Assembly: GCF_016595465.1 (NCBI RefSeq) | Contig: NZ_JAENIK010000008.1 | Coordinates: forward strand, 186,001 to 250,000 | Reading direction: 5' to 3' | Source: Luteolibacter yonseiensis | GTDB lineage: Bacteria; Verrucomicrobiota; Verrucomicrobiia; Verrucomicrobiales; Akkermansiaceae | DNA length: 64,000 nucleotides | Made by a program: the position numbers and the translations under genes | Shown: positions 1,218 to 7,284 of the stretch, one piece after another | Layout of the letters: the number at the start of each line of letters is the position of its first letter | Numbering within the stretch: the stretch's first letter is position 1 | The notes under the pieces: model-generated | Databases searched by the model: none | What the model was told of the DNA's origin: nothing | Seen by the model: the letters and a program-made list of their open reading frames with translations, nothing else

Positions 1218-2558
1218 ATGACGGGTCGAGAAATACGGGAACTGCTGGATCACGCGGGGGTGCTGCCGAGCAAGCAGCTTGGGCAGAACTTCCTCATCGA
1301 CCCGAATATGGCGCGCTGGATCGTCTCCCAGCTCGAAATTTCCCCGGATGACGCGGTGGTGGAGGTCGGCCCGGGAGCGGGTTCGCTGACCACGCACCTC
1401 GTGGGTCAGGTGCGGAAGTTGATCCTGATCGAGTTCGACGCGCGCCTGGCCGCCGCGTTGAAGGAAAAGCACAAGGACGATCCCGGCGTGGAGGTCCATC
1501 ATGAGGACGCGGTGAAGTTCGACGGCAGGAAACTCTTCAAACACCGCCCGCTGAAATTCCTCGGCAATCTCCCGTATTCCTGCGGCGGGGCGATCATGAA
1601 AAACCTTCTCAGCCGTCCGCATCCGTTCGACCGGGCGGTCATCATGCTGCAAAAGGAAGTCATCGACCGTCTCGCGGCGCAGCCGGGTACCAAGGACTAC
1701 GGCATTCTTTCCCTGCGGACACAGGCGAACTGGGAGGTGAGATCCCTCCGCACCGTGCCTCCCGAAGCGTTTTACCCGCAGCCGAAGATCGACTCCAGCG
1801 TCGCGGTGCTGACACCCCGGACGAGCGGGCTGCCGGTTTTCGACTACCGCTTGTATGACGAGCTCATCCGCCGTGGCTTCGCCCAGCGCCGCAAGCAGTT
1901 GAAAAAGCAACTGCCCGACGGGCCCGATTGGGAGACCGTCACCCGGGAACTGGGCGTGAACACCACCGTGCGCGGCGAGGAACTCACGCTGGTCCAGTGG
2001 GTGGATCTCACGCGGGCCTTCGATCCACACCCGCTCAAGGACATCGCCCAGAAAGCCGGGGAGATCTTCGATGTGGTGGATGAAAATGACAACGTCACCG
2101 GCACCGCCACCCGTGGCGAGGTGCACGCACAGAAGCTGGTCCACCGCGCGGTGCACGTCTTCGCCTTCAACAAACGCGGGGATCTGTTGCTCCAGAAACG
2201 TTCGTCGCTCAAAGATCTCTGCCCCGGCCTCTGGGATTCCAGTGTCTCCGGCCATCTTGATTCCGGTGAAGATTACCTCGCCGCATCCGTGAGGGAGCTG
2301 GAGGAGGAAATGGGCATCGTGTCAGAAACCACGCCGGAGGAGATCGCCCGCATCACCCCTCGCGAGGAAACCGGCTGGGAACACGTGCGCCTCTACCGGG
2401 TCCGCTACGATGGAGCGCTGCGCTACCCCTCGGCGGAGGTCGAAGCGGCCATCTGGTTCCCGTTGGAAGAGGTCGGCGCGTGGATCGCCGCGAGACCTGC
2501 CGACTTCGCACCCGGTTTTCTCCAGTGTTGGGAAAAATTCAAATCACTACCGTCATGA
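1218..2558 (+). CDS. rsmA: 16S rRNA adenine dimethyltransferase RsmA (KsgA) fused to a Nudix hydrolase domain
   Basis: The protein has 446 residues against about 270 for ordinary RsmA. Residues 1-270 are a complete RsmA: LGQNFL near 21, SAM motif VEVGPGAG (48-55), catalytic NLPY (117-120), and a C-terminal domain with FAQRRKQLKK. RsmA dimethylates two adjacent adenines in helix 45 of 16S rRNA. Residues about 281-446 are a second domain like YfcD / type 1 isopentenyl-diphosphate isomerases, with a Nudix box G-x5-E-x7-REL-x-EE-x-G-I running from Gly345. There is no stop or frameshift between them, so this is a true fusion. The stop overlaps the next start (ATGA), implying translational coupling. 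The Nudix substrate cannot be read from sequence. Confidence 0.93.
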   Translation: MTGREIRELLDHAGVLPSKQLGQNFLIDPNMARWIVSQLEISPDDAVVEVGPGAGSLTTHLVGQVRKLILIEFDARLAAALKEKHKDDPGVEVHHEDAVKFDGRKLFKHRPLKFLGNLPYSCGGAIMKNLLSRPHPFDRAVIMLQKEVIDRLAAQPGTKDYGILSLRTQANWEVRSLRTVPPEAFYPQPKIDSSVAVLTPRTSGLPVFDYRLYDELIRRGFAQRRKQLKKQLPDGPDWETVTRELGVNTTVRGEELTLVQWVDLTRAFDPHPLKDIAQKAGEIFDVVDENDNVTGTATRGEVHAQKLVHRAVHVFAFNKRGDLLLQKRSSLKDLCPGLWDSSVSGHLDSGEDYLAASVRELEEEMGIVSETTPEEIARITPREETGWEHVRLYRVRYDGALRYPSAEVEAAIWFPLEEVGAWIAARPADFAPGFLQCWEKFKSLPS

Positions 2559-3313
2559 CACGCCTGCTCGTCTCACTCGCCGCCAGCCTGGCGCTGGTTT
2601 CCTGTCACAAGCCCGCACCGGATGCCCTGTCCTACCGGATCGTCTCCACCCGCGAGCACGACGGAGGAGCCTACACCCAGGGTCTCCAACTGGTGAACGG
2701 CCGCCTTTTCGAAAGCACCGGCCAATACGGTGAGTCCACCGTGCGCGAGCTCGAACCCTCCACCGGCAAGGTCCTCCGCAAGCGTCCGCTCGCGAAAAAC
2801 GTCTTCGGCGAGGGGCTCACCGTCATGGGCAACGAGATGTGGGTGCTGACTTGGAAAGAGAAAACCGTTTATGTGCTGGAGCCGGACACCTTCAAGCCGA
2901 TCCGCACCCATACCTACGAAGGCGAGGGCTGGGGACTGGCCAACGATGGCAAACAGCTCATCATGAGCAACGGCAGCGAAACGCTGAAATTCCTCAACCC
3001 CAAGGACTTCACCGTCACCAGGTCACTGGAAGTCAAGGACGGCACGCAACCGGTCCGCATGCTCAACGAACTGGAATTCATCGATGGCCAGATTTTCGCC
3101 AATATCTACCTGACGGAAAAAATCGCCCGCATTTCCCCGGAAACCGGCCAGGTCACCGGCTGGCTCGACCTCAAGGGCCTCCGCAACCAGCTCGCGAATC
3201 CCGGTCGCGCCGAGGTTCTCAACGGCATCGCCCACGACCCGGCCACCGGCCACCTGCTCGTCACCGGCAAATACTGGCCCCAGATGTTCGAGATCAAGAT
3301 CGGGAAGAAATAA
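2555..3313 (+). CDS. Glutaminyl-peptide cyclotransferase (glutamine cyclotransferase family) lipoprotein
   Basis: The 252-residue protein has an N-terminal lipoprotein signal with lipobox LVSC (Cys about residue 17). The rest matches the plant/bacterial glutamine cyclotransferase beta-propeller: AYTQGL, EGWGL, LNELE, NGIAHDP and TGKYWP at the expected spacings. The family turns N-terminal Gln of exported proteins into pyroglutamate; anchoring in the cell envelope fits that. The ATG at 2555 overlaps the rsmA stop (ATGA), so the two genes are probably co-translated. An in-frame upstream start inside rsmA would give a non-signal N-terminus and was rejected. Confidence 0.85.
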   Translation: MTRLLVSLAASLALVSCHKPAPDALSYRIVSTREHDGGAYTQGLQLVNGRLFESTGQYGESTVRELEPSTGKVLRKRPLAKNVFGEGLTVMGNEMWVLTWKEKTVYVLEPDTFKPIRTHTYEGEGWGLANDGKQLIMSNGSETLKFLNPKDFTVTRSLEVKDGTQPVRMLNELEFIDGQIFANIYLTEKIARISPETGQVTGWLDLKGLRNQLANPGRAEVLNGIAHDPATGHLLVTGKYWPQMFEIKIGKK

Positions 3314-3361: not shown

Positions 3362-4138
3362 ATGCCCCTGCCTGATCCAAGCCAAGAACCCGCGATCCGG
3401 GACCCGAAAAAGCTTCGCAACACCGCATTTGTCCTGCTCGCCATGATGATCGTCGGTGGCGCGCTGATCCTGAAAGCCTACGAGCAGTGGTCCGTGAAGC
3501 AGTCCCAAGACGACCGGCCCGCCGTCGTTTACCGCATCACTCCGGAACGCGACCTGCGCATGCTCCGGCAGGATGGAAAGACCGTCGATCTGGTGGATCT
3601 GCGCGGAAAGGTCATCGCGCTCAACGTCATCAGCCTGCGTGATCCCCAGGCCGCCGAACGCAGCCTGGCGGTGATGAAACGTCTCGCCGGGACCCGCAAG
3701 GCGGACGGCGACATCCACCTTGTCACCCTGATCCTCGACCCCATGCCCTCGGAGAAGCTCCTTCCAGCCCTCCAGGAAACGGCCGCGGCCCACGGCATGA
3801 CCCTGCCGCAGTGGTGGCTTGGCAGCAACGAGCCAAAGACCCTCCACAAGTTCATCAAGAACGAGCTCAAGGCGAATGTTTACCCCAACGAGGCAAGAGG
3901 CAGTTGGGAATACGACCCCGCCATCGTGCTGATCGATAAAAACGGCCATGTCCGCCGGGCGGTGGTGCCGCAGAAACAGGGCGGCCCTCCGTTCATCGCC
4001 ACCTTCGATTTCGACCAGGCCGCGGGATGGGACGCGAAGGGAGTCAAAACAGGCACGGATCATTCCAATTCCGAGCAACTGGAAATCCTTCTCAACCATA
4101 CCATCGACAAGCTTCTGGCAGAAAAATACGTGAAATGA
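3362..4138 (+). CDS. Membrane-anchored SCO1-like protein lacking the redox cysteines
   Basis: The 258-residue protein has one transmembrane helix (about 21-42) and then a thioredoxin-fold domain organised like SCO proteins (VDLVDLRGKVIALNVIS, then an IVLIDKNGHVRRA strand). The loop after LNVIS reads LRDPQAAE, so the Cu-binding/redox CxxxC or CxxC is absent. The gene overlaps the next, a SCO protein with CPHC, by ATGA, and a DUF420 gene follows. It is probably a structural or partner subunit of the same assembly module rather than a copper donor. Because both copies keep the same anchor-domain layout, a tandem duplication followed by loss of cysteines is likely (inference). Confidence 0.7.
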   Translation: MPLPDPSQEPAIRDPKKLRNTAFVLLAMMIVGGALILKAYEQWSVKQSQDDRPAVVYRITPERDLRMLRQDGKTVDLVDLRGKVIALNVISLRDPQAAERSLAVMKRLAGTRKADGDIHLVTLILDPMPSEKLLPALQETAAAHGMTLPQWWLGSNEPKTLHKFIKNELKANVYPNEARGSWEYDPAIVLIDKNGHVRRAVVPQKQGGPPFIATFDFDQAAGWDAKGVKTGTDHSNSEQLEILLNHTIDKLLAEKYVK

Positions 4139-4845
4139 AAAAGAACACCACCATCGCCCTCTTCTACACCGGCGTGGCCGCTCTCTGCGTCGGGATCCTC
4201 GCCATCGCGTTCTCACTGAGGCCCGGACTGACCAACACCTATACGGAACCGGCTGTGGACATGGGGAAAGACACCGTCCGCGAATGGTTTCCCATTGAAA
4301 AGGATCTCGCCGCCGTCAACCAGGACAACGAGTCCGTCAAGCTTTCCGACCTGCGCGGCAAGGTGTGGGTCGTCGCCGAATTCTTCGCCATCTGCCCGCA
4401 TTGCGCGGTGAGGAATGGCGAGGAGCTGCGGAAGCTCTATGACGAGTTCAAGGGGAATCCGGATTTCCACATCACCTGCATCTCGGTGGACCCGGAAAAC
4501 GACAAGCACGACAAGCTCTCCGACTACGCCAAGGCCCTCGGCGCCGAGACGAAGAACTGGTGGTTCCTCAATGCGGGTGAGGTGAAGGCCACCCATGAAT
4601 ATCTCGAAAAGGAACTCAAGTTCTTCGGCATCCGCGAGCGCACCGATCCCGTCGATGTCGAGGCGAACGGCAAATTCGCCCACGACCTCGGCTTCCTGCT
4701 GGTGGACCGGGATTTCAAGGTCGTCGGCAAGTGGCCCCTCGCCGACGCACGCTCGGAGGACGCGAAAAAGCGTGACCCGGAACTTTACCAGAAACTCAAG
4801 GACGATCTCTACGGACGCATCCGCCAGGAGCTTGGCAAGAACTGA
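4135..4845 (+). CDS. SCO1/SenC-type thioredoxin-fold protein (CPHC)
   Basis: The 236-residue protein has an N-terminal signal anchor (about 6-29) followed by a SCO/thioredoxin domain: LSDLRGKVWVVAEFFAICPHC, a TCISVDPENDKHDKL segment and FAHDLGFLLVDRDFKVV, which supplies the His expected of SCO proteins. The cysteines are CxxC (CPHC) rather than the CxxxC of canonical SCO1, so thiol-disulfide exchange is at least as likely as copper delivery. In this family the role is building the Cu-A site of cytochrome c oxidase outside the cytoplasmic membrane. It is coupled to the preceding Cys-less homologue (ATGA) and lies 17 nt before the DUF420 gene. Confidence 0.82.
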   Translation: MKKNTTIALFYTGVAALCVGILAIAFSLRPGLTNTYTEPAVDMGKDTVREWFPIEKDLAAVNQDNESVKLSDLRGKVWVVAEFFAICPHCAVRNGEELRKLYDEFKGNPDFHITCISVDPENDKHDKLSDYAKALGAETKNWWFLNAGEVKATHEYLEKELKFFGIRERTDPVDVEANGKFAHDLGFLLVDRDFKVVGKWPLADARSEDAKKRDPELYQKLKDDLYGRIRQELGKN

Positions 4846-4862
4846 ACCACCGGCACCCGACC

Positions 4863-5429
4863 ATGAATGACGAGCGCAAACAATGGCTGTCCCGCCCGCC
4901 GCAGGAAGCCCTCTCGAAAAAACTCGGCACCATCGCCTGGATCCTGACCGCGGCGGTGCTCGCCCTGGTGATGGTCATGCGCGGGCCGAAGATTCCTTTG
5001 CCGGACGGCTGGTCGTTCGCCTTCCTGCCTCCGGTGCACGCGGTGCTGAATTCGCTGGTGGCCGTCTCGCTCATCGCCGCCATCGTCGCGGTGAAACAGG
5101 GGAAAATCCGTCTGCACCGGATTTTCGTTTCCATCGCGATGCTGTTGTCTGTCGGATTCCTCCTTTGCTACGTGGCCTACCATTTCACCACGCCGGAAAC
5201 CCGCTACGGCGGAGAGGGCGCGCTGCGCCTCGTCTATTTCTTCCTGCTCGCCACCCATATCGTCCTCGCGGCGGTGAGCCTGCCGTTCATTCTTCTCACC
5301 TTCATCGCCGCACACACGAACCGTTTCGCCGCACACCGGAAACTGGCGCGGTGGGTGTTTCCCATCTGGCTTTACGTGGCGGTCACCGGGCCTGTCTGCT
5401 ACCTGATGTTGAAACCGTATTACGGATGA
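4863..5429 (+). CDS. DUF420 membrane protein (YozB/CtaM-like), cytochrome oxidase maturation
   Basis: This 188-residue integral membrane protein has about five hydrophobic segments and DUF420 hallmarks: PPVHAVLNSL, the HR of RLHRIF, a YVAYHF helix, and ATHIVLAAVSLPF followed by AHRKLARWVFPIWLYV. The conserved histidines suggest metal or haem contact. The Staphylococcus member CtaM is needed for maturation of an oxidase, and DUF420 genes often sit with SCO and oxidase genes. Here the gene ends a probable operon SCO-like / SCO / DUF420. The oxidase subunits themselves are not in this window; ctaB lies far away near 52 kb. Confidence 0.82.
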   Translation: MNDERKQWLSRPPQEALSKKLGTIAWILTAAVLALVMVMRGPKIPLPDGWSFAFLPPVHAVLNSLVAVSLIAAIVAVKQGKIRLHRIFVSIAMLLSVGFLLCYVAYHFTTPETRYGGEGALRLVYFFLLATHIVLAAVSLPFILLTFIAAHTNRFAAHRKLARWVFPIWLYVAVTGPVCYLMLKPYYG

Positions 5430-5477: not shown

Positions 5478-6260
5478 TCACTCCGCCGGCTTGGCTTCCT
5501 CCGGCTTCGGAGCATCAGGTTTCTGCTTGGGCGGTGGCGGTGGAAAATCCTCGGTCGAGATCTTCAGATCGTTGTTCCGATCCAGCAGCTCGAAGCGCTC
5601 TTCCTGCTGGTCCTCGGTGAGGTTTTTCACCGCAGGCCCGAGACGGAATTCCTCGAAGGAAAGTGAACCGTCGCCATTGGTATCCAGCTTGCGGTTGATC
5701 TGCTCGGGCGGTTTCTCCGGGCGGTCACCGTCTTTTTTCGGGCCGCGGAACGGAGGCTCGGGTTTGTCCTTCGGAGTGATGACACCGTCGCCGTCCGTGT
5801 CCAGGCGGCGGAACACCGTATCCTGTTTCTCCGGCGGAAGTTTCTTGAAAACCTCACCTGCCTTGAACTCCTCCAGACTGATCCCGCCGCTCTTGTCGGA
5901 GTCGAGTTCCCAGAACCGTTTCGCCGGGTGGTCACCCTTGTCGTGGGGTTTTCCGAAGCGGCCGAGCTCTTCGCGGCTGAGCTTGCCGTCACCATCCTTG
6001 TCGAGACGTTTGAAAATGTTCGCGCGCTTTTCCTCCGGGATGTTCACGATGCGGGGCATGGCGGCGAACTCGGCGGTGGACAGGAATCCATCGTTGTCCT
6101 TGTCCGCGGCCTTCCAGGTTTCGGCAAATGGCGGACGGGGCCCCGGCGGGCGTCCCTTTCCCTCACCCGGCGGCGTCTTCTCCTGTTCCGGCGGTTGGGC
6201 AAGGCACAGGACTGGCATCAGCATTCCGGTGACAAGTAAGGAAACAGGGATTGTTTTCAT
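5478..6260 (-). CDS. Secreted EF-hand calcium-binding protein with six loops
   Basis: The 260-residue protein has a signal peptide (1-21, cleavage after CLA). It has six EF-hand-like loops: DKDNDGFLSTAE, DKDGDGKLSREE, DSDKSGGISLEE, DTDGDGVITPKD, DTNGDGSLSFEE and a degenerate DRNNDLKISTED. Pro/Lys-rich low-complexity segments lie at both ends. Such proteins bind calcium in the periplasm or outside the cell; the partner is unknown. It is convergent with the DUF420 gene and divergent from metF, so it is probably monocistronic. The last loop has Leu-Lys where Gly is usual and may not bind calcium. Confidence 0.85.
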   Translation of the reverse strand: MKTIPVSLLVTGMLMPVLCLAQPPEQEKTPPGEGKGRPPGPRPPFAETWKAADKDNDGFLSTAEFAAMPRIVNIPEEKRANIFKRLDKDGDGKLSREELGRFGKPHDKGDHPAKRFWELDSDKSGGISLEEFKAGEVFKKLPPEKQDTVFRRLDTDGDGVITPKDKPEPPFRGPKKDGDRPEKPPEQINRKLDTNGDGSLSFEEFRLGPAVKNLTEDQQEERFELLDRNNDLKISTEDFPPPPPKQKPDAPKPEEAKPAE

Positions 6261-6378: not shown

Positions 6379-7284
6379 ATGCACATCCGCGACATTCTCA
6401 GCGACCCGAAGCCATCGCTCTCGTTTGAATTCTTTCCGCCACGCAGCGCGGCGGCATGGGAGGACCTTTACCAGGCCATCCGCGAATTGGAACCGCTGCA
6501 CCCCACCTTTGTCTCGGTGACCTACGGCGCGGGCGGCGGCACGCGGGAACTGACGCATGATCTCGTGGTGCGCATCAAGGAAACCACCTCGATCCCGCCG
6601 GTCCCCCATCTCACATGCGTGGGCCACTCGGAGGAGGAGGTTTTTGAAATCCTCGAACGTTATGCGAAAGCGGGGGTGAGCAACATCCTGGCGTTGCGCG
6701 GAGATCCGCCCAAGGACAGGCCGGATTACGATTGGTCGGAAAGCGGCTTCCGCCATGCGGCGGACCTCGTGGCGTTCATCCGCAAATTCAACGAGTCCGG
6801 CGCACACCCGGACCCGCGCGGATTCGGCATCGGGGTGGCGGGATTTCCCGAAGGCCACCCGACGACGCCGAACCGGGTGGATGAACTCGATTTCCTGAAG
6901 GCGAAGGTGGATGCGGGAGCTGACTACATCTGCACCCAGTTGTTCTTCGACAACCACGACTTCCTGGACTTCCGCGACCGTTGCGATTTCGCGGGCATCC
7001 GTGTGCCGATCATCGCCGGCGTGATGCCGGTGACCTCGCTCTCGGGGATGAAACGGATGGCCGAGCTCGCCGCGGGCGCGCGCTATCCGGCCAAGCTCCT
7101 GCGTGCCTTGGAACGGGCGAAGGCGAATCCGGAGGCCGTCGAGCGTGTGGGCATCCACTACGCGGCGGAGCAATGCGCGGGCCTGCTCGACGAGGGAGTG
7201 GATGGCATCCACTTCTACACGCTGAACAAAAGCCACGCCACGCGGGAGATCTACAACAGCCTCGGGCTGACGGCGGGGGTCTGA
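6379..7284 (+). CDS. metF: 5,10-methylenetetrahydrofolate reductase
   Basis: The 301-residue TIM-barrel flavoprotein has the family signatures SFEFFPPRS, VSVTYGAGG, HLTCVGHS, ILALRGDPP, GVAGFPEGHP, YICTQLFFDN, PIIAGVMPV and the C-terminal GIHFYTLN. It reduces methylene-THF to methyl-THF, the methyl donor for methionine synthesis. Length matches the bacterial enzyme (about 296). The ATG at 6379 is the only plausible start. The 118-nt upstream region shows no SAM or cobalamin riboswitch that I can recognise. It stands alone, with a GC-rich hairpin just downstream. Confidence 0.97.
   Translation: MHIRDILSDPKPSLSFEFFPPRSAAAWEDLYQAIRELEPLHPTFVSVTYGAGGGTRELTHDLVVRIKETTSIPPVPHLTCVGHSEEEVFEILERYAKAGVSNILALRGDPPKDRPDYDWSESGFRHAADLVAFIRKFNESGAHPDPRGFGIGVAGFPEGHPTTPNRVDELDFLKAKVDAGADYICTQLFFDNHDFLDFRDRCDFAGIRVPIIAGVMPVTSLSGMKRMAELAAGARYPAKLLRALERAKANPEAVERVGIHYAAEQCAGLLDEGVDGIHFYTLNKSHATREIYNSLGLTAGV

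Follow-up and report, generated by a model that had tools for sequence, protein, structure and literature searches.

The window, the whole stretch of 64,000 nucleotides from Luteolibacter yonseiensis that was analyzed, contains a reading frame of 446 amino acids (1218-2558, plus strand) in which an RsmA rRNA dimethyltransferase and a Nudix domain are joined in frame, without an internal stop. This fusion, already proposed in a sequence-only reading of the DNA, is real: it occupies a single frame of 446 codons, and both parts (PF00398 and PF00293) score well above curated cut-offs. The product is best explained as a bifunctional housekeeping enzyme; very probably it combines two enzymes, with a Nudix site that is competent for catalysis. 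RsmA, an almost universal protein, usually serves one purpose only; its stable fusion across an order and in two genomes of 0.9 Mb marks a directly testable functional link. RsmA-Nudix is a new domain architecture assembled from known enzymes, and no earlier description of it was found in the literature searched, most subscription journals being outside its scope.

Gene Organization and Domain Layout

The features of the gene are listed in Table 1. Conservation refers to 60 diverse fusions, whose identity to the window protein ranges from 37 to 79%, and to an alignment of 125 rows, whose counts include redundant entries and the window's own sequence three times.

Table 1. Features of the RsmA-Nudix gene and of the gene that follows it (positions in the window).
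Feature	Position	Strand	Basis
Complete RsmA-Nudix fusion gene	1218..2558	+	446 codons plus stop; ORF reading, Pfam/NCBIfam matches
RsmA/KsgA domain, residues 19-265	1272..2012	+	Pfam/NCBIfam; fold match to B. subtilis KsgA
SAM-binding motif EVGPGAG, residues 49-55	1362..1382	+	E49, G51, G53 invariant, 60 fusions
E72, probable counterpart of E. coli KsgA Glu66	1431..1433	+	Invariant, 60 fusions; equivalence inferred from motif position
Catalytic NLPY motif, residues 117-120	1566..1577	+	Invariant, 60 fusions and 125/125 rows
RsmA FxPxPxxxS motif, residues 185-193	1770..1796	+	F185, P187, P189, S193 invariant
Inter-domain linker, residues 268-281	2019..2060	+	Near-constant length; model pLDDT >=84
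Nudix domain, residues 282-442	2061..2543	+	Pfam; fold matches YfcD, DR_0079, E. coli IDI
H303 ... H309-R310 (subfamily HxxxxLHRAxH motif)	2124..2147	+	H303 invariant; H309, R310 nearly invariant
S344, position of IPP-isomerase catalytic Cys67	2247..2249	+	Alignment; Ala 68 / Ser 57 of 125 rows, never Cys
Nudix box GX5EX7REUXEEXGU, residues 345-367	2250..2318	+	Catalytic residues invariant
E388 (TGWE[HF] motif), Glu outside Nudix box	2379..2381	+	Invariant, fused and stand-alone forms
Glutaminyl-peptide cyclotransferase-like lipoprotein gene, next after fusion	2555..3313	+	PF05096; ATG overlaps fusion stop (ATGA)

The AlphaFold model of the whole protein is compact, with a pLDDT of 95.1, a pTM of 0.91 and no floppy linker; modeled alone, the Nudix part reaches a pLDDT of 94.6. 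The segment across the linker measures 21 residues in 114 of the 125 aligned rows. Separate translation of the Nudix part from an internal start was considered, as a Shine-Dalgarno-like site and an in-frame GTG lie near residue 286. These are found in only 29 of the 125 rows and are not conserved.

The RsmA Domain

Residues 19-265 match the RrnaAD/RsmA family (PF00398, 201.5 bits), and the score against the ksgA model TIGR00755, 227 bits, exceeds the equivalog cut-off of 171. The N-terminal model matches the fold of B. subtilis KsgA (Z 31, 271 residues, 2.3 Å). E49, G51, G53, E72, NLPY and FxPxPxxxS are all invariant in the 60 diverse fusions. In E. coli KsgA, Glu66 is essential for the methyltransferase (PMC9032327).

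According to the PF00398 search, the fusion is the sole RsmA of the 5.7 Mb genome. The other match (L002), examined as a second RsmA that would make the fusion a spare, is a PmtA/OlsG-like lipid methyltransferase. The GGAA target loop was found in five 16S 3' ends of the genome. Being the only RsmA of the organism and having all the catalytic motifs, the N-terminal part should dimethylate A1518/A1519 of the 16S rRNA during 30S assembly. On the immature 30S, the C-terminal domain of RsmA contacts the platform and the N-terminal domain h45; the enzyme methylates A1518/A1519 and then departs (PMC9032327).

The Nudix Domain

Membership of the Nudix superfamily is established by the match of residues 309-420 to PF00293 (67.6 bits, gathering cut-off 21.1), together with a complete GX5EX7REUXEEXGU box. 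This box, GHLDSGEDYLAASVRELEEEMGI (residues 345-367), had been called intact on first reading, and its catalytic residues are indeed present: the G, E, R, E, E and E are invariant in the 60 diverse fusions. Over the whole domain, H303, G345, H346, E351, R359, E360, E363, E364 and E388 do not vary in this set, and the active-site residues are common to the fused forms and the stand-alone orthologues. E388 is a candidate metal ligand or base.

The closest folds are those of YfcD (Z 23.7), DR_0079 (Z 22.4) and the E. coli IPP isomerase (Z 22.3), which bears out the resemblance to YfcD and IPP isomerases noticed earlier. Sequence and predicted fold both place the Nudix part in the YfcD/DR_0079/IPP-isomerase branch. 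The YfcD model NF011922 is the best family model with 84.6 bits, yet this is below its equivalog cut-off of 152. Scores also stay below the cut-offs for type I IPP isomerase (TIGR02150, 69.8 bits, cut-off 105.8), NudB/FolQ (NF006961, 27.2 bits, equivalog cut-off 103) and RppH (NF001938, 23 bits, equivalog cut-off 116). Because the position of the catalytic Cys67 of the type I isomerase is always occupied by Ala or Ser (125 of 125 rows), the Nudix part is predicted to be an active Mg2+-dependent pyrophosphohydrolase and not an isomerase.

Distribution and Origin of the Fusion

Relatives share the fusion: of the genomes sampled from the same genus, family and order, all 38 (the window genome among them) carry it at full length, as do seven other genomes of the class, from families f6, f7, f11, f14 and f15, giving a total of 45 among the genomes searched across the phylum. 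In a second genome collection, the best 80 of 190 relatives are all fused and all Verrucomicrobiota. Over the two collections, this amounts to at least 124 fused loci, partly redundant. Isolate genomes are among them, namely, those of Luteolibacter pohnpeiensis, Rubritalea profundi and Persicirhabdus sediminis. The family of the window genome includes Akkermansia.

The remaining genomes of the class mostly encode RsmA and, in a gene of its own, a Nudix protein that shares 36-55% identity with the fused one. In the remaining families of the class, the match stops after the RsmA domain, and in the other classes sampled, the RsmA domain alone is covered by the best matches listed. A match on a Monoglobus plasmid, which seemed to span both domains, is an rsmA gene beside an RdgB-type gene and not a fusion.

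In the RsmA tree, all fused forms make up one clade (support 100/96), nested among the RsmAs of the phylum itself, with split forms from families f4 and f8 beside it. The tree of the Nudix domains is weaker; a single clade of fused forms is not rejected (p-AU 0.82). Since the fused RsmAs form one clade, the fusion appears to have arisen once and to have been inherited vertically. The simplest history would be one fusion in the ancestor of the fused lineages, with vertical inheritance afterwards and changing neighborhoods. The idea of an isolated accidental fusion has to be abandoned, as the fusion is ancient, goes back to one event and was found in all the genomes sampled from the order. No point in favor of an assembly error, a missed stop or such an accident was found; the number of fused loci in two collections, the isolates among them and the one-clade origin of the fused RsmAs make these explanations practically negligible.

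Median dN/dS is 0.14 for the RsmA domain and 0.20 for the Nudix domain (330 partly non-independent pairs); on these sequence comparisons, purifying selection acts on both domains. In family f7, two genomes of 0.9 Mb keep the fusion and its box, each with one other Nudix protein, which is RppH-like in one of them (G036).

Genomic Neighborhood

No general conserved neighborhood of the fusion was found; the best candidate is a glutaminyl cyclase gene at position +1, at 18 fused loci. In the window, a trypsin-like protein with a PEP-CTERM sorting signal is encoded upstream of the fusion (121-1098). The region 3362-5429 resembles a cytochrome-oxidase accessory cluster, with a SCO1/SenC-like protein (4027-4845) followed by DUF420; the ORF in front of the SCO1/SenC-like gene (3362-4138) has no Pfam match. 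The minus strand carries, at 5478-6260, the gene of a protein that looks secreted and has several EF-hand calcium sites. The metF gene (methylenetetrahydrofolate reductase, 6379-7284), 4 kb downstream, was rejected as a folate link, being absent near the other fused loci.

At one split locus (L213, 588-4208, G102:C5), the two halves of the fusion are found unjoined, 2.3 kb apart: the stand-alone Nudix gene overlaps a YgjP-like gene, followed by mazG, and is divergent from a trpC-rsmA pair.

Putative Role in Folate Synthesis

The main substrate of the Nudix part could be dihydroneopterin triphosphate, i.e., the FolQ/NudB step of folate synthesis, an assignment that is the leading one but is made tentatively, with moderate to low confidence. 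Gene context is the sole specific pointer to a substrate: the assignment is proposed because the stand-alone orthologue adjoins folE2 and because the fused genomes checked have GTP cyclohydrolase and FolK. At six loci of split genomes (L115, L125, L130, L131, L134 and L175), from two families of the same class (f3 and f13), the stand-alone gene immediately follows folE2 on the same strand; at L134, the two reading frames overlap. In family f12, the two genes are ~4 kb apart. Judging by its position, the stand-alone Nudix protein behind folE2 might perform the FolQ step that is missing. This step, following dihydroneopterin triphosphate, is performed in Lactococcus by the Nudix enzyme FolQ; in most genomes, the step is missing (PMC1971073).

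A GTP cyclohydrolase is encoded in all 26 genomes checked: only FolE2 in 23 and FolE in exactly the other three, all of them fused (G240, G013 and G166). FolK is present in 23 of the 26, with every one of the 13 fused genomes among these. The two 0.9 Mb genomes with the fusion contain FolE2 and FolK, with two Nudix proteins only, the fusion included. In the window genome, none of the four other Nudix proteins scanned passed the NudB cut-off, and three further ones were outside the scan.

In the proposed mechanism, the Nudix part would convert 7,8-dihydroneopterin triphosphate, the product of GTP cyclohydrolase, and would thereby supply the FolQ/NudB step, for which no gene was recognized in the window genome. 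As a Mg2+-dependent pyrophosphohydrolase, the domain would act on its own in the cytosol. Its attachment to RsmA would set the stoichiometry and coordinate expression rather than channel an intermediate. The fusion may also tie one-carbon/methyl supply to ribosome assembly, and it might influence 30S assembly physically.

Several observations weaken the folate assignment. In the Nudix tree, families f3 and f13 fall together, so the folE2 adjacency may be a single event in one lineage. Queuosine synthesis draws on FolE2 as well, and the folE2 gene of the window genome is part of a queF-queC-queD cluster away from the fusion (L217, G000:C12:346500-351000); these neighbors suggest that it may mainly serve queuosine synthesis there. 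The NudB model score is weak (27 bits vs. a cut-off of 103), and the preference of DR_0079 for cytosine nucleotides is a further argument against. Finally, enzymes that are not Nudix proteins can take the place of FolQ (PMC1971073). If true, the folate assignment would fill an often-missing step for the whole group, including gut Akkermansia; if false, the fusion would still offer a way to the substrates of the YfcD branch, which is poorly understood.

Alternative Functions

Sanitation of the nucleotide pool, where the Nudix domain would act on non-canonical or oxidized pyrimidine nucleotides and would be joined to RsmA because of a reported DNA-repair role of KsgA, is rather unlikely. The nearest folds and sequences, YfcD and DR_0079, agree with it, as does the cytosine preference of the latter, as cited in a review (PMC5389931), and E. 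coli KsgA has been reported as a DNA glycosylase acting opposite oxidized thymine (PMC10091538). The locus where mazG (an NTP pyrophosphohydrolase) comes after the YgjP-like gene that the stand-alone Nudix gene overlaps also speaks for it. However, the window genome already has MutT-like enzymes, and this mazG context concerns a single split genome, folE2 being the commoner neighbor. The sequence-only reading had also thought of the removal of RNA 5' ends; as an RppH-like protein is encoded separately, such processing by the fused domain is not needed, though it may occur. Linkage of ksgA, apaG and apaH is known from E. coli. The fusion might recreate it, with the Nudix domain cleaving Ap4A or Np4-capped RNA in place of ApaH, the main Np4A decapping enzyme of E. 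coli (PMC8131947). The window genome has no ApaH match, but the domain falls in the YfcD/IDI branch, Ap4A hydrolases match more weakly and the separate RppH-like enzyme is present, all of which makes this stand-in unlikely.

Only slightly less probable is a mainly structural or ribosome-contact module, tuning the binding of RsmA to the 30S, with catalysis secondary. The compact two-domain model (pTM 0.91), the near-constant linker length and the contact of the RsmA C-terminal domain with the 30S platform (PMC9032327) are in line with this, but the metal-binding box and E388 are fully conserved, as in the stand-alone forms. More speculative still, and improbable, is a metabolite-responsive gate: with RsmA positioned at the immature-30S checkpoint, the Nudix domain would bind or hydrolyze the triphosphate of a nucleotide or a pterin, coupling one-carbon/nucleotide status to ribosome maturation. 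IPP isomerization, suggested by the significant similarity to type I IDI and by the lack of a type II IDI above cut-off in the window genome, is disfavored to the point of being very improbable: Cys67 is replaced throughout the 125 rows, the scores lie under both IDI model cut-offs, and the fusion has a full hydrolase box, whereas that of E. coli IDI reads RRX2YE (PMC5389931).

Comparison with Known Systems

The N-terminal 270 residues resemble RsmA/KsgA (TIGR00755) in sequence, motifs, fold and single genomic copy; the fusion differs by its additional 175-residue Nudix domain. The closest solved structure to the latter is E. coli YfcD (PDB 2FKB; superposed over 161 residues at 1.8 Å), a stand-alone protein that lacks the Glu of the TGWE motif conserved in the fusions and that is listed without an assigned substrate in a large review (PMC5389931). 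Deinococcus DR_0079 (PDB 2O5F/1Q27), of the same branch and fold, is also a stand-alone protein, without H303 and E388 at the aligned positions. This nearest characterized relative prefers cytosine nucleotides (Buchko 2008, as cited in PMC5389931). Type I isopentenyl-diphosphate isomerase has the same fold and a similar His-rich N-terminal region, but its catalytic Cys is missing from the fusion, which has a complete hydrolase box instead. With FolQ/NudB, the likeness would be one of function, through the folE2 linkage of the stand-alone orthologue, although these enzymes belong to another Nudix subfamily than the fused domain.
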